This document shows positions 3,400 through 21,837 of a stretch of DNA of 64,000 nucleotides, piece by piece. The translations under genes were made by a program, and so were the position numbers. The notes below the pieces were generated by a model, which saw only the letters and a program-made list of their open reading frames with translations, searched no databases and was not told the origin of the DNA. Within the stretch, counting starts at the first letter, position 1. Every line of letters begins with the position of its first letter. Origin of the DNA: Acarospora socialis (taxonomy: Eukaryota; Ascomycota; Lecanoromycetes; Acarosporales; Acarosporaceae); assembly GCA_025617375.2 (NCBI GenBank), contig JAMYGW020000002.1:3286001-3350000 (forward strand). Reading direction: 5' to 3'.

Positions 3400-6300
3400 T
3401 CAACGTCCTTCCCCCGCCAGCACCCGAATGGCCCACCGCCAATCCTCCCGCCCACTCCCTCCGTCGGCGCCCTGCCGCTCGCTCTCCTCCCTCCTCTCCC
3501 CGACCCACGCCTCCACCTTCCTTCTCCACTTCTCCTCTTCCGCCCGCTGCCTCCTCACGAACTCCGGCCCGACATCAAACTCCTCGCCGACGAGCCACTC
3601 GTCCGCCAGCCCACCTCCCTTCCCACCCTTCCCTTCTCCCTCCGCATTTCCTCCCTCGCCATCGCCAGCACCAGCACGATCCGTCGGCTTCGATTTCGAA
3701 TCCTCGAGATCCTCGAGGCCCGCAAAGGGGTCGTCTTCGTCGTCAACGGTGTCGGGGCTCATCGGCGTGCTGCCGTGACCAGTACCTGTTTGCGACGAGG
3801 GCGCCATCTTCAACCAGCACATGCGCTGCGGGTCGAAGACCATGCCGCCAACGACCTGGACGCCCTGCGTGGCGCTGATGTTGGTGATGAGGGCCGGGGC
3901 GGCTTTCAGCGCGGTGGAGGTCGGGGTCGGGTGTGTGGGAGAGGAGGTCGCTGCCGCGGCGGCAGGAGAGGGGAGGGGGGCATCGAAGGGGGCCAGGGCG
4001 TTTTCGTTGCCTTCCCAGCGGAAGAGGGTCGGGTTGTAGTGCATGCCTTTCACGGCTGTGGGGTGGTGGACTGTGTCAGTATGGGCGGTTTCATGAGGGG
4101 TTTAGGGAAGGCAGGCGGGAGGAGCTTACATTTCGGTTCGTGCACGCCGTCGCCCATCGGCTTGATCAGACAAGGCTTGGTGCTGGTTCCGGGGAGTTTC
4201 GACTTTTTGCCTCGGTGCGCGCTCGGGCTGGCTAGACCTCGCGCGGCGATTTGCGCTTTCCAATTCGTGCTCACCGGTGCTAGTGGCCCTCCTTCGTTTC
4301 TAGGATTCACGCTTGCGGCGCCCATGCGTTGCTCTCGAGCGATCCGGCTGGCGTTGGTGTCTCGCGCGAACCGTGGGGTGTAGTCCTGTTTCGTTGGACT
4401 CATCGGAGGTAATGGCGTCTCGGTCCTCGACGGCGGAGGGATGTGCGACTGCTGACCGAGCCGGCTACGGAGCCCGACCCTAGGTCCTCCACGAGCAATG
4501 GGTTGCTTGACGAACTTGCTCTCGGTGCTGGCAGAAGTCGGGAGATCGTCGAAGACTTCGAGCTCACTTCCATCTCCAAAGTTCCGACGCCTCGTAGGCT
4601 TCGTGATCGTCCGCTTGGCAGCCGCTTTTTGTGCAAGGTGTTCGGGAGCTAAGTCTTTGCGGCCTCGACCGGTTGGAGTTTCTGGTCGTTGAGCATTCGA
4701 AAGACGAGAGATAGGGCGCGGCGGCGCTTGGTCGTTAGAGTCGGATGAATCGTGACGCCGGAAATGGCGGGAAGATTTGATGCTGATGTGGTGGGACTGG
4801 GAGTGCGAGCTACCGGCAGGTAGGAAGGGCACCGGAGGTTTGCGGCTGTTCCCAAGGCTAGATTCAGCCCCTGACCGATCAACCGGGGTCTTGGGCCGAG
4901 AGGGCAAGGCTTGACGGGACCCGCTTTCGGCGCGAGAGGGAGGGCGATTGTAACTCGGTGGAGGTTTGGCTGGGGAAGCTTGCTGGGAGCGCATTGCGGG
5001 CATTGAACGTTTCGCACGCAGTAGCTGGGCGCTCGTGGTTGTAGGCTCCGTTCGAAGACCTTCTCGCGATGACTTATTGCCGAGTCCTCTTCGGCTAGGG
5101 GTCGTCGGCATCGCTGGCGTAGAGGTCGGGACGATCGGTGCCGGGATATTGGAGACGGAAGTTTGCGTTGAATGGGCCGCCAACCTCGAGCGAGGTCGAT
5201 GATAAGCTGGCACTGGGCCACCTATCTCTGACACAGACTCGAGCGTAGATTTCTGGCGGTCGTGTCCACGTAGTGGGAGCGGTATCCGTGTTGTGGTCTG
5301 TTTCGTGATTGTTTGTTGAGCTTTGCTTGTGAAGGTCAATGTCGTGGCCGTCCGTCTCGCTGGACTGGTAGATCGTGTAATCTTATGTTTGATATTACGA
5401 TTGAGGGTCAGCTTTCCGGATCCGAAAACAGCGCCATCTCCAATCTCCAGGCCGGAGAAGAAATCCTCTTTCGGAGCTGCAGCCTTATCCGACGGTTTCT
5501 CCACTGCGAGGCTGGTGGCTTCAGGAGATGCATTTTCTCGACGTCTCCTAAGTGCCTCGTCAAATTTCAACGGTCCATCTGGCAATATCAAGCCGTCGAG
5601 ACCCTCATCTTCACTTTCTGCAGTAAGACAACTGGATACACTTGGACTCAAGGCGGACACAGAAGAGCTCCGGTTCGACCTGCCGTCGCGCTTAGTACCA
5701 CCAAATCGAGTCCCCAGGCTTCCTTCGGCCCATTCAGTATCGAAATCATCTAGAGAGCTGGCAGTCACTGGTGTTTTGGGGGTCTCTTTTCGCGTAGATA
5801 GCTTTAGTGGCTCGCCCGTATCGGGGAACTCAAGGTCTTGTTCGAAGTTATCCACGTCCTTGGGTACGTTCAAAGTTGGAGGTGCGAAGTTGATAGGTTT
5901 CTGCAGTGTCCTAGTCTTCCCCAGTTTGATTGTGGGTACATCACCAAAGAAGCCATCCTCATCTTCGTCGTCACGAAACTTGTCAAGCCCAGGACCTTTG
6001 TCGTTACCAGCGGCGGCCAGACGCTCCATCAGATTCATACCGACTTGGGGTCTGGCAATGGTGGGACCATGGAAGGCCGCACTGATCTGCCTCAACGTAT
6101 TTGGGTAGGTTTTGCCTTCCGACTTCTTGATTTTCAGCCCTCCTGTTTCTGCTCCAGGTAATTCCAGGCCTTCACTCCAGTCATCAGCAAGCACCTTCTT
6201 CAGTTTCCTGCCTCCCAAGCGTTTGATTGTACCTCCAAGCAGCGCCGAGGAGGGTACGTTGGTCGGTATCGGTATACCCGCACTTTTGGCAGATGCAATT

Positions 6301-6581
6301 GCATCCGTTGTTGCGCTCTCATCGTCCCCGGGTAGTAAAACCTGCCAGTCTTCATCTACCCCACCGTTGCTCTCTATGTCTGACTTTGTCGACATGCGCG
6401 ACGAGAGAGAATCTCGGTGGTTTGAAGGCTGTGTGGAGAAGCTGGTACTAGCCGTCGTGGTTGATGACATACGAAAATTGAGATCATCGATTCCTTGAAG
6501 GTCTTCATCATCATCCCAGCACTCAACGTCTTCAGTGTTCGGGCGTGGCTTTAGTGTAAGGGCCTCCATTTCGTTGTTCAT
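3400..6581 (-). CDS. byr4: Byr4/Bfa1-type septation initiation network inhibitor
   Basis: The exons on the minus strand are 6581..4130 and 4055..3400, with one 74-nt intron, giving 1035 residues. The first ATG is at 6581; the codon before it is GTG. Byr4/Bfa1 is the scaffold half of the two-component GAP (with Cdc16/Bub2) that holds the GTPase Spg1/Tem1 off at the spindle pole body and so restrains septation or mitotic exit. The acidic N-terminus (CWDDDEDLQGIDDLNF), DDWSEGLELPG, the long disordered Ser/Pro/Arg-rich middle and the C-terminal block (MHYNPTLFRWEGNENAL, GVQVVGGMVFDPQRMCWLKM, DDPFAGLEDLED) are the family pattern. The last motifs are the conserved spindle-pole and GAP-partner region in fungal homologues. 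The intron restores the C-terminal block in frame (EPK-SVKGMHYN). Identification is by family recall, not a search. Confidence 0.85.
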
Positions 6582-7191
6582 CACGAAATTTTCCAGTCGC
6601 TGCGCCTTGATGAGATTTTTTCTGGTCGCAATAATAGTATGGCTTTGTTGTTGTGGTGATGGTCAAGTGTTGAGGCCGTTTCTACCAAAGAGGGAAGGAA
6701 AAGGTGTTAAGGAAAGGGCGACAAAGCTTTGCGCGATTGAATGCGAATTTGGGTGTTAAGTAGTGCCAAAGAGCTGTGGTTCAGACACAATGGCTCGATT
6801 CAAGGTGTCGTACTAGAGTGACGGACTCGACGCGTTCCTGTTTGCTGCTTGTTCACGATCTGATTGTCGTCCTCGTCGTCGTCGCAGCAGATGCAGCTGG
6901 CTGCCGATAGCAGCTCCCTGGCCCTGGGACAGCGCAGGGGCTGCGAATTTCCTCTGCGTACGGTGCCCGTACAGGTTGAAAACGTGTAATCGGAAACAAG
7001 AAAGTCTTCAAGGTAGAGGCTTTACGTTAAGGGTGATCAAGTCTGTGGTTGGTGAGGTCGGAGGTGGCTGGTCGGCCGCCGGTCGCAAGCTCTCGTTGAG
7101 ATGAGCAAGCTAGCGTAAGCGACGCACTAAACGCGAACAGGGGTCTCAGCGCGTTTCTCCATCTCCGTGCGGACGTCCTCACTCCCATTAG
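6582..7191. other. Intergenic, byr4 5' region
   Basis: About 600 bp upstream of byr4, with pyrimidine/purine tracts and GTCGTCCTCGTCGTCGTCG near 6868. No gene is seen. It runs into a decayed gene on the other strand. Confidence 0.5.
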
Positions 7192-8173
7192 ATGCGACCA
7201 TCTATCATTATAATACTTACCGTCACGTCTCTGGTCTTCTCTACACATCGTACTCTTCTCTACACATCGTACGCCAGGGTTCCCTCGGTACCAGAAACCG
7301 TTCGAGAACTTTCACGATATGGCAGCTCATCTCAGCGGGAGCGATTCTTCTACAGCTACTACGGAGCTCAGATGTTCACGTACCACAAGGGTCGTGATGA
7401 ATGGGCACTACAGGCGTTTTGGAGAGGAGTGCAGGTATCATAAAGCACAGCGGTCATATCTGGGTCGAGGACACTCTAGACGGAGGTCTGAGTGATTGGT
7501 TGTTGAAAGTGGAAGGGAAACATCCTGAGATGGGTGCAGGAGCTCTGCTCGAGCGAGTGAATCTCATCTGGGTGACTTCCAAGTTCAAGGGAACACGAAG
7601 GGCAACAGTCCGGTCAACAACCCGGCAGCGGAAGGTGAAAATCTATCGGTAAGCTGTCATTGCGGAGGTGTACAGTATCACATCACTCCACCAAATCGAG
7701 AATCTACGAAAGCGTCATCCCCATGGCGGATCTTCTCGTGCCCGACCATAGGAGTTCCGCTGAGAATCAGGAAGATGTGAAGTGGTGGCTCCGTGTTGAC
7801 GGGACAAAGTATCTAGCAGGGACTTGTACCTGCAACTCATGTCGGCTGGCCTCCGTATTTGACATTCAGAGCTGGACGTTTGTGCCAAAGGTCAACATCC
7901 TGGTAGCGGAAGAACAACCACCGATACAAGGGCTCAACGGGGCCTTTCAGGGAGTTCTGCGGGGTGTGTGGGGCCACCGTATTCTGGCACTGCGACGAAC
8001 GTCCGGACTCGAACAATGTCAGTGCAGGCTTGCTTAGGGCCAGGAACGGAGCAAGGGCGGAGGAGTGGCTCGAATGGTGGACGGGTAGGGTAAGTTTTCA
8101 GGAGGGTGCTCTTAACCAAGACCTTGTGAAGAGGTTGGAAGCGGGACTCCAGAAAATATGCGATACAGAATAG
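7192..8173 (+). pseudogene. Decayed GFA/CENP-V-domain (glutathione-dependent formaldehyde-activating type) gene
   Basis: Pieces of a fungal two-domain GFA/CENP-V-type zinc protein lie in order but in different frames. They are RERFFYSYYGAQMFTYHKGRDEW (frame 1, around 7330-7405), GIIKHSGHIWVEDTLDGG (frame 3, from about 7405), SCHCGGVQYHITPP (frame 2, from 7652), DVKWWLRVDGTKYLAGTCTC then NSCRLASVFDIQSW (frame 1), and FCGVCGATVFWHCDERPD to the stop (frame 2, from about 7950). At least four frame changes are needed, with no plausible introns at the junctions. Two expected zinc Cys in the first domain read as Tyr (FFYSYYG where FFCSYCG is expected); TGC to TAC is a TpG to TpA change. The second domain keeps its Cys pairs. 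I call it a pseudogene; sequencing error is the alternative. The 5' limit is approximate. Confidence 0.7.
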
Positions 8174-8730: not shown

Positions 8731-8775
8731 CTACAAAGGAACTAGTATTTAGTGTCCGGACGTACCATAAGCGGC
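8731..8775 (+). repeat. Left terminal inverted repeat of MITE-like element
   Basis: Forty-five bases, 40/45 identical to the inverted copy at 8943-8987. Confidence 0.7.
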
Positions 8776-8942
8776 AGCATATTTGAATACCACAACATCA
8801 ATCATCATGAACATTAGATTTGCACAACTTGTGAGGATACAGTTGGGTAAACATCAAACTTCTGAGAAATCAACTTCTTATCACATATTCTGATCCTATA
8901 TAGGGATGTTAAGCATAAGGATATAGTAGGGTTAGCTGTGTC

Positions 8943-8987
8943 GCCGCTTACAGCACGTCCGGACAGTAAATACTAGTTCCTTCGTAG
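8943..8987 (-). repeat. Right terminal inverted repeat of MITE-like element
   Basis: Inverted partner of 8731-8775, with mostly transition differences. Confidence 0.7.
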
Positions 8988-9499: not shown

Positions 9500-10950
9500 A
9501 TGACACGAAATGAGGAAAATGAGGCTATCTCTCTCCGCAGGCCGCTGCCGTCAAACGTCGGCGAGCAAGAGTCCCACGCCACCAACAACACTAGACAAGC
9601 CAAGGCAAGGCAGTGGGAAGCAGATAGGAAGAGGGCCTTCGTTCTTGTGGGCTCCTCAATATTGCAGCTGCCGATCTGGGGTAGACTAAGTAGAACTTCA
9701 TCCAAACTGGAATTCTGCTCACACACGTAGGCTTTGCCATGAGTTATGGTGTCTTCCAAGAATACTATTACGACAACTGGACGCTTCAAGGCAGTCGTGA
9801 AGTTACTGGTGTCATCGGCACAACCTCCAACGGCGTCATGTACCTATCCATGCCCTTCCTATTCGCTCTGTTTACCAAACGATGGGCCCGTAAACGCCAG
9901 ACCGCAGCTCTTTGCGGCGCTGCGCTTGCAGGCCTCAGCTTCATATTGTCCTCCTTCAGCAAACACATCTGGCATTTGGTTGCAACACAGGGAGTCATGG
10001 CAGCGTTAGGATGTGCTCTCATCTACAGCCCGATTACACTATCTCTTGGCGAATGGTTCAACACCGAAAATCGCATATGCAATCGAGCTGTGGCGTATGG
10101 AGTTGTTCTGTCCTGCAAGAACATCGTAGGATCTGCTTGTCCGTTTCTACTCCGAGACCTTCTTGATCGCTACGGCTTTCGTACTACGTTGAGAGTATGG
10201 GCGGCTATTACAGCCGGATCCAGCATTCTCTCAATCGTCATGATACCAACTCCTCCTTCAAGCATATCCACAAGCGCTCATCGCACACAGAAGATCCCCT
10301 GGCATTTCCTCAAACACCAGACGTTCTACATCTACAGCATCGCCATCTTGCTTCAAAGCGCTGGATATGGCATTCCACAAACATACCTAAGCGAGTACGC
10401 CCGCAACGTCGCTTTGCTGTCTCAGACCTTTTCCACCCTTTTGCTCACTCTGATCAACATCCCTGGCATTGCCGCCTCGTCCTTTTTTGGGTTTCTGAGC
10501 GACAATAGGCACATCCCTCTCTCAGTTACGACTGTAACTTCTGTATCTGCGGTCAGCTCCGCTCTGTCCGCTTTCCTCTTCTGGGGCCTAGCGGCGCGAG
10601 GTAGCATAGCGCTTTTGGTACTGTTTGCCATTACCTTCGGCTTCTTTGCCAGCGGCTACAGCGCGACTTGGGGAGGCGTTATAAATGAGATGGAACGCGA
10701 AGCTGCGCGGAAGAACGAGGCTATCGACACGGGAATGCTGTATGGTCTGCTAAATGGTGCGAGGGGCATTGGATATGTGAGTGGTGGGCTTGTTAGTGTA
10801 CCACTGATCAAAGCGGGAAGTGCGAGCTCGGTGGGAGGCTTCGGTTATGGAACGGCTTACGGGCCCCTTATTATCTTCACCGGGCTCTCGTTAGCGTTCG
10901 GAGGCTGGGGATTGGTATGGAAGTGGAAGAAGTTGCTGCATTTGGTGTGA
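9500..10950 (+). CDS. MFS transporter, monocarboxylate-porter type
   Basis: Exons 9500..9680 and 9731..10950 (50-nt intron) give 466 residues. The ATG at 9500 is preceded by CACA. The splice joins GSSILQLPIWG to FAMSYGVFQEYY, the first membrane helix of fungal monocarboxylate-like MFS proteins. About twelve hydrophobic segments follow, with the expected short cytoplasmic centre (around SAHRTQKIPWHFLKHQ). Conserved features include a TGVIGTTSNGVMYLSMP helix and a late helix with GARGIGYVSGG. The protein should sit in the plasma or organelle membrane and move small organic acids. It is the left-most intact gene next to the PepM/Ppd block and could export or import a phosphonate or precursor; that link is positional inference only. 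It ends 635 bp before the convergent dioxygenase gene. Confidence 0.85.
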
Positions 10951-11584
10951 CAACGGAATGAAAGAGAAAAGCCTGCAATTTGATTCGCAAATCCTATCCC
11001 ATTAGGACTCGAAGACACCTCCGCAGTCACCAGAGTAAAGCGTTCTGTCACTATAGAACTTTCCGTTCCTCGCTGCAATCTTTACTCTCCTGCAAACCCA
11101 GGACCGTACACCTTCTCGAACGCCGAATCTCCGAGATGCAGCATGGTGAACACGTGACAGGCAAAGGCTCCAGGATATAGTGCAATCACGTGATTACGGA
11201 TCAGTGTAAGCATACTACTCAATCACAACGACGAAGTATATCTTTTCTGGGGTTTCTCCAAAACCATGACACCTCCAGACGATTTCCCAGGAACAATTGT
11301 GCTCTTATAAATAGCAAAACATCTTGGCAAGTTCTCGAGAGGAAGTCAAAGCATCATTTGAGTCCCTCAAGTGACCCGGTGGTCCTTTACAAAGATGGCA
11401 CATACCAACTTCTGTTGAACAAAAACTGCATTTGGGGAGAGAGAGACCTGATATGTAAAAAATCCTCTGCCGGTTACTAGGCATATACCCTCGTCGGAGA
11501 AGGAAAGAGTTTGAAAAAGGCCAACAACTTAAAGCATCTGGAGTCCTATATCGATATTCCTTGGTCTCTGACAGTTTTATCGTT
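10951..11584. other. Intergenic between convergent MFS and dioxygenase genes
   Basis: 634 bp with two CACGTGA boxes near 11151-11194. Open frames here are shadows. No gene is supported. Confidence 0.5.
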
Positions 11585-12978
11585 TTACTCAGCGTCAAAC
11601 AACACCTTAGGGGGGCGGTCATCCACCTGAACCCCACCCCTTTTCTTCGCGTCGCTGTCATGGAAGGGCAATTTCCAGCCGCCTTCGCTCTCAGGCGTGG
11701 AGAGCCACAACCGCAGCAGATGCCGGCCCGGCGCTGGTGGTGGGTCATCCTTGTACTGCGTTCGAGCATGAAAGAGGTGCTCGTTGGACATAAACTGGAC
11801 GTCTCCGACTTCGAGTTTCATGTGCAACGAGAGACGCTGACATGTATCCTCCAAGACCTGTATAGCTTTGATCTGCTCCGGAGAAAGGGGTGGCACGACG
11901 CCTTTATCGGAGTATCGGCTTAAGGACTTGACGAAGTTGGGATCCCACCTAGAGCAACATCTCAGCCTTTGTCGGTCTCGAATTTGGAGAGCTAAGTGAT
12001 CTTACTTTGCGTAGACTCGACCGTTATCCTTCTCGAGATAGAAGACACTTGTTCGAATAAAATCTTCCTGCCCGACGCTCGTCTCACCCTTTCGATCAAA
12101 GTACCAGATCGGTTTCGTAAGGGTTTCCATCACGTCGGGCTGCTCGGCCTGAAGAACATTAAAGACATGATGCCCTGAGACGACATCCAATTCGCCGCCT
12201 TCGCGCGCCTTGTTGATGCAAAGAAGGCCTACGATGTCAACAGGATCGGCGTGGAAATCTTGCCTAGAGGTGATTTCAGCCCTCTTTCCCGACAGTATCG
12301 TTTGGCTGACCAAAAAATTTTGGTGGTGGGGTGACTGTGAGTGGCATACCTCGCGTTCGTCCGGTAGAAGCGGACCCTATCCCACTGCTTAGGGTCTTCA
12401 CCTAAGTCTTTGATATGACCCAAGATGTGGCCCTTTCCATTTTGGGACACGATATACCCCAGGTGTGACCCGAGACCCATATAGGCCACGGCCGACTTCT
12501 GGATTCCCCATTCCTTCACGGGTAATCCTTGGAATAGCACGAAGCCCTTGCCGTTGAGCAGGTCATCGCGAAGCTCCTCAAGATACTTGGAGTGCTTGGG
12601 CAATGGGAAGTGTTCCTACTCAAGAACAAAACATCAGCGATCTAGAAGCAATGGGCTTGAGTCATGTCTCAGAGAGGATCCCACCCATACCTTTGACATT
12701 CCAGTCAAGGGCCGACCGCTCGCCAGGAATCGATCCGAAACAGCGCTCAGCTCGTCAATCTCCTCTTGGGTGAAGTGACGCTTCCAGAGCCGCTCGTTTT
12801 CACCAGCGTAGTCCTCTGCCTTCCACACGGTCTTGCCCGTGATCTTTTTCGGGAAGTCAAAGTACGGACGCAGGAGATCGTAGAGAGGCGGTTGCTGCCC
12901 AGTCGTCTTGATGCCATCGGGGAAGAGTTGAGTGTCGACTTTCGTATCAAGTGGGGTGCGGAACTCGGTCAAAGCCAT
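11585..12978 (-). CDS. TauD/TfdA-family 2-oxoglutarate-dependent dioxygenase
   Basis: Four exons on the minus strand: 12978..12691, 12615..12350, 12305..12006 and 11948..11585, giving 405 residues. Introns are 75, 44 and 57 nt. Members use Fe(II), O2 and 2-oxoglutarate to hydroxylate or oxidise small substrates. The iron triad is visible: His203 and Asp205 in FHADPVD, and His345 in NEHLFHARTQY. Arg360 or Arg364 in GRHLLRLWL should bind 2-oxoglutarate. Other fungal TauD marks are GKGFVLFQGLPVKEWG, GYIVSQNGKGHILGHI and VGLLCINKAREGGELDVVSG. It lies beside PepM and Ppd, and one copy of the shared 32-bp motif is 317 bp upstream of its ATG. In bacterial phosphonate clusters, dioxygenases commonly tailor the C-P product; acting on a phosphonate here is inference. 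A sulfonate or other acid substrate is the alternative. Confidence 0.87.
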
Positions 12979-13294
12979 TTTGACGTCTGAGGAATGCTGA
13001 TATTAAATAACAACAGCTGTTGTTTGAAACGAAGGGGAAAGATCAATCAATCTGTGCAGGCCAGTCGGTCTTGGTATGCCTAGTATATGTGAAGATGCGT
13101 GGTCTGGAGTATCTACAGGATGGAGGTTGATATATCCACGTGGGCAGTCCTTGAAACCATTCTGTTGATTGTTCCGTTTCCCCTCTTCTGTGGTGGGGCA
13201 GTGTCACTCCATTCCGCTGCGCCCTCATGCATTATCAGTCACGAAGCTGACAATAACGCAGTCACTCACACTCATATCACATACCGCCGAGGGA

Positions 13295-13326
13295 ATCAGT
13301 TGGTCATGTGCATCTTTACCTGATTC
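13295..13326 (+). promoter_or_regulatory. Shared 32-bp cluster motif, copy A
   Basis: Reads ATCAGTTGGTC, then ATGTGCATC, then TTTACCTGATTC. It lies 317 bp upstream of the dioxygenase ATG. It matches copy B at 30/32, copy D at 28/32 and copy C at 25/32 positions, while flanking sequence is unrelated. Candidate binding site for a pathway regulator. Confidence 0.6.
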
Positions 13327-14543
13327 AACAACACGCGCATAATGCGATATCATAAAATATAATGCAGGGTTACATCAGAAAACCCGACATGCAGGGCTGA
13401 CGTGAGCCTGTTCCAGATTCCCTTCACTTTTGCAGCTAGGGAGTGTTTCCCTGTCCCGCGCAAGCCAAGACTTGCGAAGCGCTGCTAAGAAGAGCACAAG
13501 AGTTAAGCATTGCCAAGAGGTTCCAGAAGACAGAGGCGGCGATCCTTCATGCAAGAAATCCTGCATACCAATCTGCCGTCAGCACATAACCGATCAGAAA
13601 TCTGCCTTGAACTCCGTTCTGATGAAGGGCACCTGCCTACTTGTGCCTTACCCTACTGCTTACTGGGCCACAACAAGATACCTCATATCATCTCCAACGG
13701 CCTGGTCGCGTGGTTGGGGTGCATGGGGTTACGGGGGTTACTAAAACAAGTTTGATGCGTAAGCCCCATCAGCCCCTGTCCGGTCCAACATCCAACACCA
13801 AGTTGTTTACATGTCATCTCCTATCGCCAAGTACATAGGGTGTCATGCCAATTATCGCCGGCGTGGAATTACCCTCCCCCATCTTCTACCCCGGCATGTA
13901 TGATGTCCTTTCCTTTACCCACTGCCCATTTCTCTCATGTACAGGACACGTTCCGTATGCCGATCTATCGGAGTTTAGAGATGCGTTTTCCCCGATCATT
14001 CGGAGTCAAGAGATGCATTATCTCCCCTCCCACATGAGCAGTCAATTACTCATCTTCGTACGGCCGAGAGAGCTGCTGCAGACAGCGCACACAAGGTCGT
14101 TGCTGCTGTCTATCACACGGTTCATGTCAGCAGACTAGGTTCATCCAAGAGATCAGCCTGATACATTGGCTCGGAACACGTATCACCTGCAACGGTGACC
14201 GAAAAGGAAAACAATCACACGACAACTCAAGAGAATTGTCTTATTATCTCTCGTCTACTTGTGTTGCATATTACGAAGGTGATGAGCAAATTTCTATGCC
14301 ATCTCACAGCTTTTGCTGTCATGTAGAGACTGACAAATGTCTTGAGTAAGTACACTAATCTTAGCATGATGAATGTTCTTCTAGTAACAACAGTCTATGG
14401 ATCACTTGACAAAGTCATTTGACCTGTTGTATCCTCAAAGTCAACTGGGGTTGGAAGCTTCTTGGTCTCTTGAATCAGCTTTTTAGGGTAGTATAGAAAT
14501 TTGCTCACCGCCTTCGTACAGTACTGGTTTCTATCACCTTATA

Positions 14544-14575
14544 GAATTAGGTAAAGATGGACATGACCAACTGAT
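14544..14575 (-). promoter_or_regulatory. Shared 32-bp cluster motif, copy B (inverted)
   Basis: On the minus strand it reads ATCAGTTGGTC, ATGTCCATC, TTTACCTAATTC, 30/32 identical to copy A. It lies about 530 bp beyond the 3' end of pepM and about 1.6 kb from the dioxygenase start, so its target gene is unclear. Confidence 0.55.
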
Positions 14576-15071
14576 ACCACATCGCTTGCTGACAAAAGTA
14601 CGACACATGGCTGCCTAGAACAGCTTTCCCGTTATCGGCCCCATCCTCTCCTCTCGCTCTCAAGTTCTCACACTTTGCGTATTGGGCACTGTCCATATCA
14701 CCAATTCACCTCGGAAACGTTGCCCCTCTCTCGTCTTCTAACTGCGGCGTCCTCTTTGTGGGTGCCTCTCATGAACACGGATCTGCCAGGAGGCAAGGTA
14801 ACTTTATCAAATTTCACATGTATAGGGTTTTGGAGTCAAAGTTCGTGCTACGATTCGCGATGCTGGCTTAATGTAGAGCTTACGACTTCTGGAATTGGTT
14901 ATTGACGGAGTTCTATCTTCATCGCTGTATTTGTCAAAGTATCATGCAACATAGGCTGAATTTCCATTGTCCAAGTAAAAGATACTTGAAAAAGTCCAAA
15001 AAGAATATGTGAATGGCAAAAGCAAGAACAGTACCATCTGATCGTTGACCGATGATTGTTTCCTCAGCCCT

Positions 15072-16235
15072 TTATCCAACTAAATCTTCGACGAGGGATA
15101 ACTGACGGGCATTGATTTTTAACAAGTCTTTGACGGGGATGATGCGATCATCTGCTTCGCAGCCGCACAATTCGCCGTTCAAAAGATCCGTGACAACAGC
15201 CTTCATATTCTCCGATGCCATGGTTGCCGCAACGACACGATATACCTGGGCCTCCTTACCTTCCTCGCCCAAGTACCGTCTTTCCCACAGCTTTCGCAAG
15301 AGGCACCCGTAATTTCGAGCCTCGAGACAAGCGCTCAACTCGGCGTCCTCGGAGAAGAGGTTGGGATTTTCCGCCAAAATCTGGTCGGAAATTCTACCGA
15401 CGGCGCTGATCTTCGCCCGTATCAGATGGTTGGCATAGATGATGACGTTTGCGCCTGCATCGTACAAAACGGTCTTGCGCGTCCTCGAATACGCCGTTGG
15501 AACGACAACCAACGGCGTCACGGCATCTCGGGCTCGGTACCCGGTAAGGAAAGATATCACCTCGCTCGGGTTGGCACTTTTGCTGTGTATCATAATCGCA
15601 TCGACTCCGGCCTCCCGGTAGACTTGGGCACGCTTGAGCGCATCGGCCAGCGCCGCTTGAACCGACGCTCGCTCTTCAGCTTCATCCTTTTTCGTCTTGC
15701 GTACGGTGAAGCTCTCGATTCTTGCCGTGATCATCATGTCTTTGCCAACCGGGGCGGAGGCAGCTTTGAAGGCCCGAACGGTTTTGGCGAATTCGTGCAT
15801 GTCCGCCTGAGCTTGGGAACCGGACGTGTCTTTGAGTGAGTTCACCTTCTGTCCGGGCGCGGAAACGGCCTTGTCTTCGATGATGATCATGGAAACGCCC
15901 ACGAGCGCCAATACCGCGACTAATGCTGGAATCTCGGCCATGTCCCCGCCGCTGTCGGCGTCAAAGGCGGCGCAGAGCGGGCGGCGAACCTTTTGTCGTT
16001 GCAGGTTGCCGTTCAACGCGAGCAAAGCTGCCCGCTGGAGGGGAGCGATCAGTTCGGTATCTGGAATGCCGAGATAGGTGGTTTGAGCAAGGCCGCTGTA
16101 CCATATGCCGTGGAAGGTTTGGCCTTTCTCGCCAGCAGTGTATCTGATGACTTCCGTCGAATTGCGGTCATGGGTTTCACACAAAGTGACTCTCCCATTG
16201 GTTTGCGCAAGCAACGATCTGATTGAGGTGGACAT
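15072..16235 (-). CDS. pepM: Phosphoenolpyruvate phosphomutase (PepM)
   Basis: Single exon, 387 residues, in the isocitrate lyase/PEP mutase superfamily. The enzyme converts phosphoenolpyruvate to phosphonopyruvate, the entry step of nearly all known C-P biosynthesis. Residues matching the Mytilus enzyme are visible: Trp45 and Ser47 in HGIWYSGL, Asp59 in GIPDTE, Asp92 and Asp94 in FDADSGGD, Glu120-Asp121-Lys122, Lys130 before Asn132-Ser133, Arg172 in TARIESF, and His217 in IMIHSKSANPSE. The EDK..NS signature separates mutases from isocitrate lyase, oxaloacetate hydrolase and phosphonopyruvate hydrolase relatives. Here nine residues lie between EDK and NS instead of the usual five. There is also an insert after ARIESF and a long C-terminal part, making it larger than the roughly 300-residue norm. 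It is divergent from ppd, and a motif copy lies 247 bp upstream. It has no intron. Confidence 0.88.
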   Translation of the reverse strand: MSTSIRSLLAQTNGRVTLCETHDRNSTEVIRYTAGEKGQTFHGIWYSGLAQTTYLGIPDTELIAPLQRAALLALNGNLQRQKVRRPLCAAFDADSGGDMAEIPALVAVLALVGVSMIIIEDKAVSAPGQKVNSLKDTSGSQAQADMHEFAKTVRAFKAASAPVGKDMMITARIESFTVRKTKKDEAEERASVQAALADALKRAQVYREAGVDAIMIHSKSANPSEVISFLTGYRARDAVTPLVVVPTAYSRTRKTVLYDAGANVIIYANHLIRAKISAVGRISDQILAENPNLFSEDAELSACLEARNYGCLLRKLWERRYLGEEGKEAQVYRVVAATMASENMKAVVTDLLNGELCGCEADDRIIPVKDLLKINARQLSLVEDLVG

Positions 16236-16481
16236 GTTGATACTGGCTCTGGTGAGTGAGCAACGAGTCTCTCGATCCGAAGATGTCGAAGTGCTGAAAG
16301 ATGTAGAAGTCGTGGAAGAGATTGAAGTGTTGGAGCAAGAAGAGCCGTGTGGATTTTTGGATGGCGGGAAGAATTGTCCAAGATATCTACCGTGATCCCG
16401 CTCCTCCGAGTGAAGTTAGGGCACGCAGCAGGTAGCACCATGGAACTTCATTCGGTATCAGTCAGCGTTGCATCATCGTGC

Positions 16482-16513
16482 CACAGTCGGTCGTGTGCAC
16501 TCTTACCTGATTC
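16482..16513 (+). promoter_or_regulatory. Shared 32-bp cluster motif, copy C
   Basis: Reads CACAGTCGGTC, GTGTGCACT, CTTACCTGATTC, the most diverged copy (25/32 to copy A). It starts 247 bp upstream of the pepM ATG. Confidence 0.5.
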
Positions 16514-16860
16514 TACTAGGCAGACATCCACAAGCTTCCTGATCCTACAGGTGCGTGCCGATGCAACCATGCACAAGATGATAAGACATCCTTGGTGAGT
16601 CATTGCGTATTTGCTTTCTTCTTTGGATACCTACTGCATGGATATGGAGTTTGTGGTAGGCTGGGCTCACGGGTCGAGGGTAGGTCATGCCCGTCCAGGT
16701 AGGAGTAGGGTACAATAAGTTGCTGCGTGACCCTACCCTAGGCCCAGTCCTAGTTTGTGTCCCGCTCCCTGAAGTGGAGTTTAGATATGCAGTAGCAGCT
16801 AGCAACATAGATATCACTTTACATCAGCTTCAGTCGCCATTAGTGTATCTGACCTTACTT

Positions 16861-16892
16861 ATCAGTTGGTCGCGTGCCTCTTTACCTGATTT
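16861..16892 (+). promoter_or_regulatory. Shared 32-bp cluster motif, copy D
   Basis: Reads ATCAGTTGGTC, GCGTGCCTC, TTTACCTGATTT (28/32 to copy A), about 460 bp upstream of the ppd ATG at 17356. Confidence 0.55.
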
Positions 16893-17355
16893 AAATCCAA
16901 TCGGATAAGGTATGATCGCTATGCCATGTAAGGTAGTGCAACCACACTCATTTCCCCTATATCAGCTTAGTAAGCATCACCAGAGGTAAGGTACCCAGCC
17001 CTGCTCTTGGCTGCTACCTCTCAACGTTGAAACGCCTGCAGCAGCGTTTCCATGCTGACCTTCGCCCCGCTCTGTCTGCATCCCAAATGGATATATCGCT
17101 TCCTCCTTCCTTAATGGGTTTGGAATGGTTCGCGGATGATGCTTCGAATTATGGCATCCCTCTACGATTATCCTCTGCGACTGCCTCACGACCTCTAAAG
17201 TACGCCTTGATGCTTAATTGATGAGCCATCGACACAATCGATTTCGAATTTTCAATCGAGCAGAGTGTCATCTCCCCATTCTAAGTTCGCACAACTCCCC
17301 ATCAGGTTGCTATTCCCTCGCCCTTTGCGTTTTGTCTTTGCAAGCTCTCGCAACA

Positions 17356-18549
17356 ATGGCTCCTCTCGATCCGCGCGAATTCTACGAGGAGGCGCTCCAG
17401 GCAAACGGCATCTCCACTGCTTTTGGCGTGCCGGACTCGTGCTTGAAGGGATTGTTGAGTTATTTTGCTGCGAGAAAACCCGTCCCGGAGCACGTCGTCA
17501 CGGCAAACGAAGGGGCCGCCGTCGCCGCCGCCGCCGGCTACTATCTGTCTACCGGCAAGATGGCGTTGGCGTACATGCAGAATTCCGGATACGGCAATGC
17601 GTTGAATCCATTACAGTCCCTGGCGGCAAAGGAGGTGTTCGGCATCCCAATGCTGCTTATGATTGGATGGCGCGGCAGGCCAGGGGAAAAGGACGAACCG
17701 GAACACGCCCTGGCCGGACCACGTACCTTCGACAATCTGAGGGCGAACGACTTTCCGTTCGAGCAGATGCCGGACACGGTGTCGGGTGCCAAAGAGGCTG
17801 TGGCGCGCCTTGTCGCCAAAGCCATCCGAGACAACACGCCGGTCGCCTTGGTGGTGCCGAACCATACCTTCTCGGAATACACAGACGGAGCGCGGCGAGA
17901 CAGGTCCGCTGAAGCAAAAACAAGCTATGCGAGTCCGAAAGTGGAACAGTGGATGTCGTCCGCGCCAGACCTTCCCCTATCCCGCGAACGTACCATCCGT
18001 TGCCTGCTCGGCCAGATGCAGGGTACCGACGTCTCGGTCTCTTCGGTTGGCGGAAACAGTCGCGAGATATATATGATCCGCAAGGAGCGCGGAGAAAGCC
18101 TCGGACGCAACTTTTTCTCCATCGGAGCGATGGGTCATACCCTTCCCATCGCTTTTGGAGTTTCAACGGGATTCTCTTCGGGCCGGGTGTTTTGCATCGA
18201 AGGCGACGGTTCGTTTTTGATGCACGTCGGCAACAATGCCGTCTTGGCCGGCGAAGCGCCTCCGAATATCATTCATGTCGTGATCCATAACGGCATCCAC
18301 TGCTCTACGGGAAGCCAGCCTCTTCCGATAAGCAAAGAGAATTTCTTTACCATGGCCGCGGGCCTGCCCTACAAGCAGAAATTCTATGTCGATAATGAGG
18401 AGGCATTGGTAAAAGCGGTCCAATCCGCCAGCAAGAGCACCCTCATCGTCGTCGCAGTTAATGATTGGGTCAGCAAAAACCTTCCACGTCCATCTGAGAC
18501 TCCTTTCGAATTAAGGGACATGTATATGAAATCTTTCATTCAAGTGTGA
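17356..18549 (+). CDS. ppd: Phosphonopyruvate decarboxylase (Ppd)
   Basis: Intronless, 397 residues. The ATG at 17356 (CAACAATGGC context) starts the conserved domain; the frame is open upstream to 17218, but that part shows no conservation. The TPP- and Mg-dependent enzyme decarboxylates phosphonopyruvate to phosphonoacetaldehyde, making the PepM reaction effectively irreversible. Family marks are FGVPDSCLKGLL, TANEGAAVAAAAGYYL (Glu52 is the TPP-activating Glu), AYMQNSGYGNALNPLQSL, LLMIGWRGRPGEKDEPEHA, and the TPP/Mg site from Gly283-Asp284-Gly285 to His311-Asn312-Gly313. These distinguish it from pyruvate decarboxylase and acetolactate synthase; sulfopyruvate decarboxylase is the closest alternative, but the pepM partner argues for phosphonopyruvate. 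No targeting peptide is evident, so it is likely cytosolic. Confidence 0.9.
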   Translation: MAPLDPREFYEEALQANGISTAFGVPDSCLKGLLSYFAARKPVPEHVVTANEGAAVAAAAGYYLSTGKMALAYMQNSGYGNALNPLQSLAAKEVFGIPMLLMIGWRGRPGEKDEPEHALAGPRTFDNLRANDFPFEQMPDTVSGAKEAVARLVAKAIRDNTPVALVVPNHTFSEYTDGARRDRSAEAKTSYASPKVEQWMSSAPDLPLSRERTIRCLLGQMQGTDVSVSSVGGNSREIYMIRKERGESLGRNFFSIGAMGHTLPIAFGVSTGFSSGRVFCIEGDGSFLMHVGNNAVLAGEAPPNIIHVVIHNGIHCSTGSQPLPISKENFFTMAAGLPYKQKFYVDNEEALVKAVQSASKSTLIVVAVNDWVSKNLPRPSETPFELRDMYMKSFIQV

Positions 18550-19113
18550 ACATCATCTTCCCAAGGTTGTAGGAGAGGACGGGTGATGAGAAAGTCACAT
18601 TTGCACACGCATATCTTCAGATAGCACATAATACTATGGATTTGGGTGAAGCAACTTTGTCAATGTGGTGAGGTTTCAAGGAATGGATGATGGATGCTCG
18701 ATAAGAAGCGAAACCCTTCCTTTCTAATCTAGATTATTATTAGTGATTTGATATTGAAACCAGTGTCAACAGGCAATACGTGGTTCAATGCTGAGCGGCA
18801 CGGATAGACCTTCAGTCGGAGGTGAGAAAGTGGTGTGTGGCTGACATCTTTCCAATTGTAGCCCGCAAACGCAAAGCTCACTGCATAGCCCGTAGTACCG
18901 TGCGCAGACTGTCGATCAGCTGTCAAGGCTCTGATGGGAGGAGAGTGGGGTTCTGAACATACAAGTAGAGGTGCAGCCCTTGGTTCCAAACTCGAACTCT
19001 AAACTTGAACTCCATTTAGCCAGAGTTTCTCACAGTTTCTGATTTGATTCCGAAGTGACCACGCCCTGAATTCACGCATTGGCTCCAAGGCCACCTCATA
19101 CACTTTCATCATC
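18550..19113. other. Intergenic between ppd and AKR gene
   Basis: 564 bp holding the ppd 3' region and the AKR promoter. I do not find a copy of the 32-bp motif here. Confidence 0.5.
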
Positions 19114-20171
19114 ATGAGCAACCTAGATATGTATCCTGGAGCAAAGACCAAGTTGCCGATTGTCTTCGGTGCAATGACATTTGGCAAACCAGGTTAGTTT
19201 CACCCAAGAAATTTGGAGGCCCTACTCATACCGTCTTAGGCGTGGAACAAACACGAGTTCACGATTTGAAGGATTGTAGCGCCCTGCTCGATATTTTTCA
19301 ACAACGCGGTCACCATCTCGTCGACACGGCTCGGATCTACGGCCAAGGTTCCTCGGAGGAATATCTCGGAGAATTGAAATGGCAAGAGCGCGGACTTGTC
19401 GTTGACACGAAGCTATATCCTAGTGGCGAAATCTCCCACACGGCCGCCGGTCTTCGCAAATACCTTCTCGAATCTCTCAAAGCCTTGGAGACCGACAAAA
19501 TCGATCTCTGGTATCTCCACGCGCCCGATCGCAATACCCCGTTCGAGGAAACATTTCGCGCTTGTGACGAGTTGCACCAAGAGGGTTACTTCAACCGGCT
19601 CGGTCTCAGCAACTATATGAGCTGGGAGGTAGCATCTATCAGCGAGATGTGCATTCGGAACGAATGGATCCGCCCAACGGTCTATCAAGGAGTATATAAT
19701 GCCATCCACCGCACGGTCGAAGCCGAGCTTTTTCCCTGCCTTCGACACTACGGCATGGCGTTTCATGCGTTCAATCCTCTGGCTGGCAGCTTGCTGACCT
19801 CCCGGTACCATCGTGATACCGAGGACTCAAGCATCGAATCCATGTCTCGTTTCGATCCGAACACTGTTCAAGGCCGGAGGTACCGGAGCCGCTTTTGGAA
19901 CGACACCATGTTTGATGCTCTTGATACGGTCAGAGGGACAGTACGAGAGTATCGCTTGACCGAGGCTGAATGTGCATTGAGATGGATGGTTCATCATTCA
20001 AAGTTGAGGGCCGATCTGGGAGATGCTGTGATCATCGGTGCAAGCAGTGTGAAGCATCTGGAAGAAAATCTTGAGGATTTGGAAAAGGGGTCTCTGCCAG
20101 ACAAAGCCGTTGAATCTCTCAACAAGGCATGGGCAACAACAAAAGGCGTTGTTGCAAATTATTGGCACTGA
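19114..20171 (+). CDS. Aldo-keto reductase, AKR7 (aflatoxin-aldehyde reductase) type
   Basis: Exons 19114..19192 and 19240..20171 (47-nt intron) give 336 residues. The join restores FGAMTFGKPG-VEQTRVHDL, the first strand of the barrel. The AKR tetrad is complete: Asp55 and Tyr60 in VDTARIYG, Lys84 in VDTKLYP, and His120 in LWYLHAPD. The NADPH-side motif AVIIGASSVKHLEENL is near the C-terminus. AKR7-type enzymes reduce aldehydes. Next to Ppd, which releases phosphonoacetaldehyde, the simplest idea is reduction to 2-hydroxyethylphosphonate; in bacteria that step is usually done by iron-type alcohol dehydrogenases, so this would be a different solution. This role is inferred from position only. 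It is the right-hand end of the accessory block; the next gene is housekeeping. Confidence 0.87.
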
Positions 20172-20543
20172 CATTTGACGATCGGGAAGAGAGTGGCCAT
20201 GTTCGATAGCGGATAGCTAGGTAGCCATGTGGATATGGTCATGTGATTTAATGAATTTGGGAGTAAAGGTGCTGACTAAACGCTTCGCGGCTTTTAAACT
20301 TTTGCTATCGACAAAATCATCAACCTCAGACAAAGCCAGGTACACTACACATATACCGCCACAGTCGGTCTTTTTTCTTCCTCGTTCTGATTCGCGCACA
20401 GTGCGCCATCAGTCCCTGGGAATGAATGAGTGTTAGCACGCGTCTCCCCGCAGGCTGATGATCAGCCTAGGATTGCTACAATCGTTGTACCAAAGACCAA
20501 GTCATTATGTTGCTGCTGCTTCAGTTTACTTCATCTGTCAAGG
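20172..20543. other. Intergenic, XRCC4 promoter
   Basis: 372 bp at the border between the accessory block and housekeeping genes. A CCGCCACAGTCGGTC string near 20357 shares nine bases with motif copy C, but the rest does not match. Confidence 0.4.
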
Positions 20544-21837
20544 ATGTCGGACATAATGTCGGAAGAAATCGTACTCAGGTTACCACGTTCGGATAGCCCT
20601 GGCGACTACGTGCTGGTCAATATCGTTCCCCAGAGGTTTTCCCCGTTGGACCTCAAGTTGATAGCCACCGAAGGAGAAGCTCCATACGTTGGGAGTGGTA
20701 AGGCGCAATACTATATTCTCCCGTTGGGCAAGGTCGCTGACAAACCATGTCTAGTCACGCAGAGTGTCCTGGAGAAAATCCGTACGAAGAACTACCAGGG
20801 TGACGATGAGGAATGGCAGGATCTGATTGCTTGGGTTTTATTACGGAAAAGACTCGAAGGCAGAAAGGCCAAGACTTTGATTGGCCTGGAAACTGTTGCA
20901 GCAATCGACGGTGCCTCACTTACGATTATCCTTCGCAAGAACATCAGTGGCATCACGCAGAGGCTCGGTACCATCACACTGAAACAGGACGACTTGCAAG
21001 CCATAGAACTCTTCGACTGGGCCGGTACCGCTGCCGCTGCGACCACCGCTCTAGAGAGTGAAGTTGCTACCCTATCCGCCAAGTATCATGACCAACAAGA
21101 GGCACTTGCGAAGCTCAATGGTCAGCTGGAAAGCTTGATAAAAGCGAAAGAGGAGCATGAGAATGAGCTCTTGCAGAAATTCATGGAGCTGTTGAATGCT
21201 AAGAAGCTCAAAATTCGGGATCAACAACGGCTCCTGACTGGCGCAAAAGTGAATCTGGATAAAGGTAATCTTGTCTCACGTCGTACTACTTGCGATGCTA
21301 ACTTCATGTTTAGCGGAGCAGGTGAAGGGAACCAGACGCTCTAACGGACCTCGAAAGGCGGCACCATCGCGCCCTGGCAAGCGAAAGGCTGATGTGGAAC
21401 CCGTTGCAGCAGACTCCGGATCGGATGAAGATGATCTTGAGAGGATGGACCTCGACAAGGATAAATCAGCTGAAGAAGAGCAAGAGGATCCGGACCGGGC
21501 TTCTACACCAGATAAATCTGACTTGGATGCTACCGAGGATGAGGATGAGGATGAGGCGGACCTCGGTCCAGGACCGGCTAAGCAGCCTACAAAGTCTGGT
21601 ATAGGCGCAAAGGGCAAGGTTATCGAGGTGGCCAAACAACAGAGCGAGGCGAATTCCCAATCAACAAAAGCAAGTCCGCCTCCACGGAGGGAATTACCCT
21701 TCACCCAGATGCGTACAGCGAAGGAAGCACCTAAGGGAGATCCGCCGAACATATCCACAACCAAATCCACATCCGAGGCACCAAATGCAGTCGAGGAGGA
21801 AGACACCGAGGGTGAAACTGATGATGACGAGCTCTAA
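20544..21837 (+). CDS. xrcc4: XRCC4-like DNA ligase IV partner
   Basis: Exons 20544..21264 and 21314..21837 (49-nt intron) give 414 residues. XRCC4 (Lif1 in budding yeast) dimerises and binds DNA ligase IV in non-homologous end joining in the nucleus. The N-terminal head (about 1-165) carries LRLPRSDSPGDYVLVNI and an EEWQDLIAWVLL segment. It is followed by a helical coiled coil (about 170-235) ending LLNAKKLKIRDQQRLL, the conserved ligase-binding region of fungal members. The C-terminus is a highly acidic, Ser/Pro-rich tail with a basic patch (PRKAAPSRPGKRK), probably a nuclear localisation signal. XLF/Nej1 has a similar fold but lacks this helix motif. The gene ends 74 bp from a convergent small gene. 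Confidence 0.82.

Follow-up and report, generated by a model that had tools for sequence, protein, structure and literature searches.

Phosphonates mimic phosphates and carboxylates and have yielded drugs such as fosfomycin; to our knowledge the routes by which fungi make them have been little studied. In 2022 Gama et al. reportedly described how phosphonoacetaldehyde is reduced and 2-hydroxyethylphosphonate cyclised, with genes from Fusarium and Talaromyces. In fosfonochlorin biosynthesis the epoxide is formed by FfnD, described in passages of one paper as a non-haem iron oxacyclase dependent on alpha-ketoglutarate and O2 (PMC10764440). Phosphonate clusters have also been called by antiSMASH in Fusarium; in the available text of two reports one cluster each is matched to fosfonochlorin (PMC12213878, PMC13117560), and in that of a third no product could be predicted (PMC10455376). 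A passage in a review puts potential phosphonate producers at 4.2% of eukaryotes. Here we describe a locus of Acarospora socialis which is likely to be a biosynthetic gene cluster for a phosphonate, of the same type as that for fosfonochlorin. It lies in a stretch of 64,000 nucleotides, here called the window (GenBank assembly GCA_025617375.2, contig JAMYGW020000002.1, positions 3,286,001 to 3,350,000 of the forward strand), on a contig of 3.67 Mb within a 31.1 Mb assembly. The identities of its genes by homology, the conserved residues, the recurrent linkage and the restriction of a repeat to the locus are direct observations, from which we infer the reactions, the product and the co-regulation.

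Five genes make up the candidate cluster. They lie where a first-pass annotation of the window had placed them, with frames intact once introns are allowed for, and the family names given there agree with matches to Pfam profiles. PepM, a phosphoenolpyruvate (PEP) mutase-like protein of 387 amino acids with an EDK-X9-NS loop, is encoded by a single exon on the reverse strand (15072-16235) and the phosphonopyruvate decarboxylase Ppd (397 amino acids; TIGR03297) by a single exon on the forward strand (17356-18549). The two genes are, as had been claimed, divergent neighbours with approximately 1.1 kb between them. A TauD-family Fe(II)/2-oxoglutarate dioxygenase of 391 amino acids is encoded on the reverse strand (11585-12978) by four exons (12978-12691, 12615-12350, 12263-12006 and 11948-11585), and an AKR7-like aldo-keto reductase (AKR) of 336 amino acids, the proposed phosphonoacetaldehyde reductase, on the forward strand (19114-20171; exons 19114-19192 and 19240-20171). 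A major facilitator superfamily (MFS) transporter on the forward strand (9500-10950; exons 9500-9680 and 9731-10950, open across the join; PF07690, 7.9e-17) is a possible exporter and a candidate member of the cluster. The splice sites of the TauD, AKR and MFS models are all GT-AG and the frames are open after the exons are joined.

The likeness to the fosfonochlorin (ffn) system, a fungal C-P pathway with a dioxygenase as far as the available text describes it, lies in the presence of PepM, Ppd, a reductase and a TauD protein akin to the one linked to PepM in Talaromyces islandicus. To the Fusarium antiSMASH clusters the window is likened by their common phosphonate class and not by gene lists, as far as those reports describe them. 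A bacterial module of 2-hydroxyethylphosphonate type in Segatella copri (aepX, aepY and a phosphonoacetaldehyde reductase) has the same first three chemical steps as those proposed for the window. The third gene of that module is annotated as a phosphonoacetaldehyde reductase whereas that of the window encodes an AKR7-like protein, and the fungal PepM and Ppd proteins fall in clades of their own. The first-pass reading of the locus as a phosphonate cluster gained support from the adjacency of PepM and Ppd in four other fungi and from linkage of AKR and TauD in Talaromyces. As a surprise it was overstated: the kind is already known, since FfnD and fosfonochlorin biosynthesis have been published and antiSMASH already calls phosphonate clusters in fungi. 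What is new here is a 29-bp element confined to this cluster.

Linkage in other fungi was read from locus tags and from longest contigs of equal length, one longest contig being available for each row of the homologue lists. A search for PepM and Ppd together in other fungi, as the first-pass annotation had proposed, found consecutive locus tags, from which we infer gene adjacency, in four named species: T. islandicus (PepM 04807, Ppd 04806 and, following PepM, TauD 04808), Penicillium longicatenatum (PepM 006384, Ppd 006383), Fulgogasparrea decipioides (PepM 002461, Ppd 002462) and Geoglossum simile (PepM 001814, Ppd 001813). In T. rugulosus AKR (08543) and PepM (08545) are two tags apart, and in T. 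pinophilus AKR and TauD are five tags apart with a longest contig equal in length to that of a Ppd row. The longest contigs of 120 PepM rows (the best 120 of 2344 matches) and 98 Ppd rows, 22 lower Ppd rows being left out, have 23 sizes in common, 11 of which are below 60 kb; a shared size of 2289 bp was set aside as coincidence because it is too short to hold both genes. Two further sizes, 5,511 and 6,899 bp, are common to Ppd and AKR rows, and one of 24,978 bp to PepM, Ppd and AKR rows. One row (P0243) is a single protein with Ppd followed by AKR in one frame, which is either a real fusion or a join made by the gene model.

PF02668 was matched separately by two of the four TauD exon open reading frames (ORFs), and the HxD motif is intact (FHADPVD). 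The closest solved relative of the protein by sequence is FrbJ (5eqn, 2.8e-35), which we take to be a hydroxylase of the phosphonate FR-900098. Relatives at approximately 70% identity are widespread in ascomycetes. In an alignment of the window protein with 104 listed TauD rows, the motifs HADPxD and VVSGH occur together only in the window, P0241, T. pinophilus and T. islandicus, and the same four group as one clade (support 100/100) when 37 of the 105 rows are placed in a tree. This clade identifies the window dioxygenase as the type that adjoins PepM in T. islandicus. The genome holds no second close TauD copy, the next best matches being at 32-39% over short stretches.

The AKR protein matched PF00248 at 1.1e-50 and the closest solved structures to it are AKR7A3 (1.5e-79) and AKR7A2. 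In a tree of 16 rows it falls in a ten-row clade (support 100/97) that holds all seven rows labelled as linked to PepM or Ppd, the window included; the other three are of unknown context, one of them from Fusarium. Outside this clade are the Lipomyces rows, P0242, P0247 and the nearest AKR paralogue in the genome (53% identity).

A search of the window for direct repeats found three copies of an element of approximately 31 bp, and four copies are now recognised. Copy 1 (13294-13326, forward strand) precedes the TauD start by 316-348 bp, copy 3 (16481-16513, forward) the PepM start by 246-278 bp and copy 4 (16860-16892, forward) the Ppd start by 464-496 bp. Copy 2 (14544-14576, reverse), between TauD and PepM, is degenerate and inverted with two mismatches in the 29-bp core. 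When the 29-bp pattern CAGTYGGTCNNGTGCNNYYTTACCTGATT was searched for with up to three mismatches, the 31.1 Mb genome gave four, every one of them in the cluster, and a reversed control gave none. An 18-bp core with up to two mismatches matched four times in the window against a mean of 0.15 in shuffles; at one mismatch in the genome it found the three perfect cluster copies and one place in C14, with one match for the control. Scored with a weight matrix derived from all four, the copies reach 45-55 bits, a circular result, and the rest of the window no more than 2.5. Rfam gave no match over the whole window at its gathering threshold, so that at this level the repeat belongs to none of its families. 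Likeness between copies ends at the core in two of four pairwise comparisons (33 and 40 columns), and in the remaining two it continues, as a weaker alignment with gaps, over 80-93 columns, which fits local duplication. We regard the repeat as a candidate regulatory site under selection, with plain duplication as the alternative, and this element of 29-33 bp probably places TauD, PepM and Ppd under common regulation. Two of the four copies carry ATCAG-N20-CTGAT dyads; dyads of ATCAG and CTGAT with gaps of 11, 21, 25 and 29 occur elsewhere in the window and may be chance. The ATCAG-N11-CTGAT at 18915-18935, upstream of AKR, is possibly a shortened form of the repeat ends, and it too may be chance. 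Copy 2 adjoins an element resembling a miniature inverted-repeat transposable element (MITE) at 14272-14518, which has 26-nt inverted ends (92% complementary) and related stretches at four further genomic positions.

Several observations weigh against a cluster of the fosfonochlorin type. The scan of the window found no repeat copy upstream of AKR or MFS. The linked AKR rows do not by themselves form one clade, requiring four changes, a number matched by 89 of 500 shuffles. The 120 listed rows that include the 104 TauD proteins hold no TauD from Fusarium, and the only TauD of T. proteolyticus among the matches listed is of the common type, on a contig that differs in length from that of its PepM. 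The window TauD is perhaps of FfnD type, a tie made through linkage and not through the FfnD sequence. As to the chlorination step of an ffn cluster, no tryptophan-type halogenase was detected in the window genome (PF04820, E 0.001, exon by exon; other chloride routes were not searched), and in the available text of a metabolite survey of F. avenaceum fosfonochlorin was not detected. In Alectoria sarmentosa the tags of PepM (007688) and Ppd (006603) are distant, and most of the listed fungal PepM rows give no evidence of a linked AKR or TauD.

A first alternative assigns PepM and Ppd to a phosphonolipid or phosphonoglycan pathway of the 2-aminoethylphosphonate type, TauD, AKR and MFS then being nearby genes with other functions. 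The absence of the repeat from the AKR and MFS upstream regions is in agreement with this, as is the lack of shown AKR or TauD linkage in most of the selected fungal PepM and Ppd rows, and bacterial phosphonate capacity is said, in a passage of PMC6697681, to be mostly for tailoring of the cell surface. However, none of the five genes was recognised as encoding an aminotransferase or nucleotidyltransferase, genes further out being sampled only, Talaromyces also links AKR and TauD, and both of these window proteins stand apart from their common fungal relatives. We regard such a pathway as unlikely, though it is the strongest of the rivals.

A slightly less likely alternative is that the PepM-like protein is some other hydrolase or lyase of the isocitrate lyase family, that the Ppd-like protein acts on another keto acid and that no phosphonate is made. 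PepM matched PF13714 at E 5e-37 (128.2 bits, above the gathering cut-off of 31.5), but its 198.3 bits against the TIGR02320 equivalog fall under the curated cut-off of 319.55, a result which speaks for this alternative and for which the protein is filed as PepM-like and not as a strict member of the equivalog. The same may be said of the lengthened catalytic loop, EDK-X9-NS and not the strict EDKX5NS. On the other side, the PEP mutase model outscores those for phosphonopyruvate hydrolase (83.9) and methylisocitrate lyase (18.6), and residues E120, K122, K130, N132 and R172 are invariant across 42 aligned sequences, three of them bacterial. Ppd scored 320.3 bits against the TIGR03297 equivalog, above the curated cut-off of 312.5 and more than 230 bits above the sulfopyruvate models. 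The closest solved relative of PepM by sequence is the Mytilus PEP mutase, and in a pairwise alignment with it all 17 of the positions checked, which we take to be those of the active site, are identical. The best eight of 143 plasmid matches to PepM are all annotated as aepX PEP mutase (33.5-37% identity). Ppd is the sole match of its kind within the 31.1 Mb genome and its closest solved relative by sequence is the putative phosphonopyruvate decarboxylase 9iz3.

Phylogeny places both proteins in fungal groups. A PepM tree of 29 fungal-side rows (the window and 28 of the 120 homologues, several of them from metagenomes) and 15 rows from prokaryotes and the viral collection is split between these two sides with support of 100/100. 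The window PepM falls in a 12-row clade (100/99) with PepM proteins of Penicillium, Talaromyces, Biscogniauxia, Hypoxylon, Dactylonectria and Fusarium. In a 46-row Ppd tree, 36 fungal-side rows including the window are separated (100/100) from ten lower rows, some of them named as bacterial, and the branching around the window Ppd inside the fungal side is not resolved. EDK-X9-NS is present in 118 of the 120 listed PepM homologues, with one X10 and one row without the motif, and the X5 form in 79 of 80 prokaryote PepM loci (the remaining locus gave no call) and in 19 of 21 loci of the viral collection, the other two having a longer match. The EDKXXXXXNS motif is used to separate PEP mutase from its kin in the part of PMC6697681 available, and a filter of that kind would set the window protein aside. 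Among the papers searched it alone holds this exact string, and its main text does not contain the letters 'fung', which does not make the longer fungal loop an unpublished one. From its sequence we regard PepM as belonging to a fungal lineage that should work like PEP mutase. The row without the motif (P0009) is a metagenome relative at 73% identity with EDR...SS in its place, possibly inactive or a sequence error. In the aligned fungal PepMs the segment following the ARIESF motif is also longer, and approximately 90 C-terminal residues (window 15075-15344) are absent from two of three bacterial PepMs and partial in the third. Further PF13714 matches in the genome are in C1, C3 (two stretches) and C8; that in C8 resembles PanB as judged by eye, and those in C1 and C3 may include a second PepM.

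A catabolic locus, in which PepM would run in reverse to give PEP from phosphonopyruvate and the dioxygenase would cleave phosphonates as a source of phosphate, is very improbable: the mutase equilibrium favours PEP and TauD weakly matches the phosphonate dioxygenase model TmpA (22.4 bits for one exon ORF and 33 for the whole protein, against a cut-off of 400), but the co-located decarboxylase would compete for phosphonopyruvate and drive synthesis, and none of the five genes was recognised as that of a phosphonatase.

In the phosphonate biosynthetic pathway that we favour, PepM would convert PEP to phosphonopyruvate and Ppd, with thiamine diphosphate, would decarboxylate this to phosphonoacetaldehyde, thereby pulling the unfavourable PepM step. 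The AKR7-like reductase would then give 2-hydroxyethylphosphonate. The TauD protein, with iron and 2-oxoglutarate, would oxidise this compound, most likely closing a ring to give epoxyethylphosphonate as reported for FfnD. We can only guess at the later steps, whether to fosfonochlorin or to some other end product, and at a role of the MFS protein in export. A more far-reaching proposal, which we hold only tentatively and consider rather doubtful as a whole, is that there exists a fungal PEP mutase lineage with a lid four residues longer (EDK-X9-NS) which the bacterial filter drops, that the pathway is a regulon in which a dedicated factor reads the 29-33 bp element and that its endpoint is epoxyethylphosphonate made by an enzyme from a different family to HppE.

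The surroundings of the five genes were also inspected. Downstream, the ORF at 20430-21344 has an XRCC4 coiled-coil match (30.0 bits, cut-off 27). On the upstream side Pfam gave nothing for a long ORF (4050-6584) or a short one (7660-8037), and a MITE-like element of 257 bp at 8731-8987 has 45-nt inverted ends (89% complementary) and related stretches of at least 80 bp at nine further genomic positions. Inspection by eye of six-frame pieces from the 2.1 kb that separate TauD from PepM revealed no gene, and a 104-amino-acid ORF there has no Pfam match; part of this gap is taken up by the MITE-like element at 14272-14518.

The locus offers a compact candidate set of four enzymes and perhaps a transporter, and the restriction of the repeat to it makes co-regulation directly testable. 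In this sample the combination of HADPxD and VVSGH tells the dioxygenase linked to PepM apart from the type common in fungi. Epoxyethylphosphonate, the proposed product of ring closure, is a desmethyl analogue of fosfomycin. EDK-X9-NS provides a search signature for fungal PepM proteins overlooked by the bacterial motif and, if the proposed lineage is real, fungal phosphonate capacity may have been undercounted wherever the EDKXXXXXNS filter has been used.

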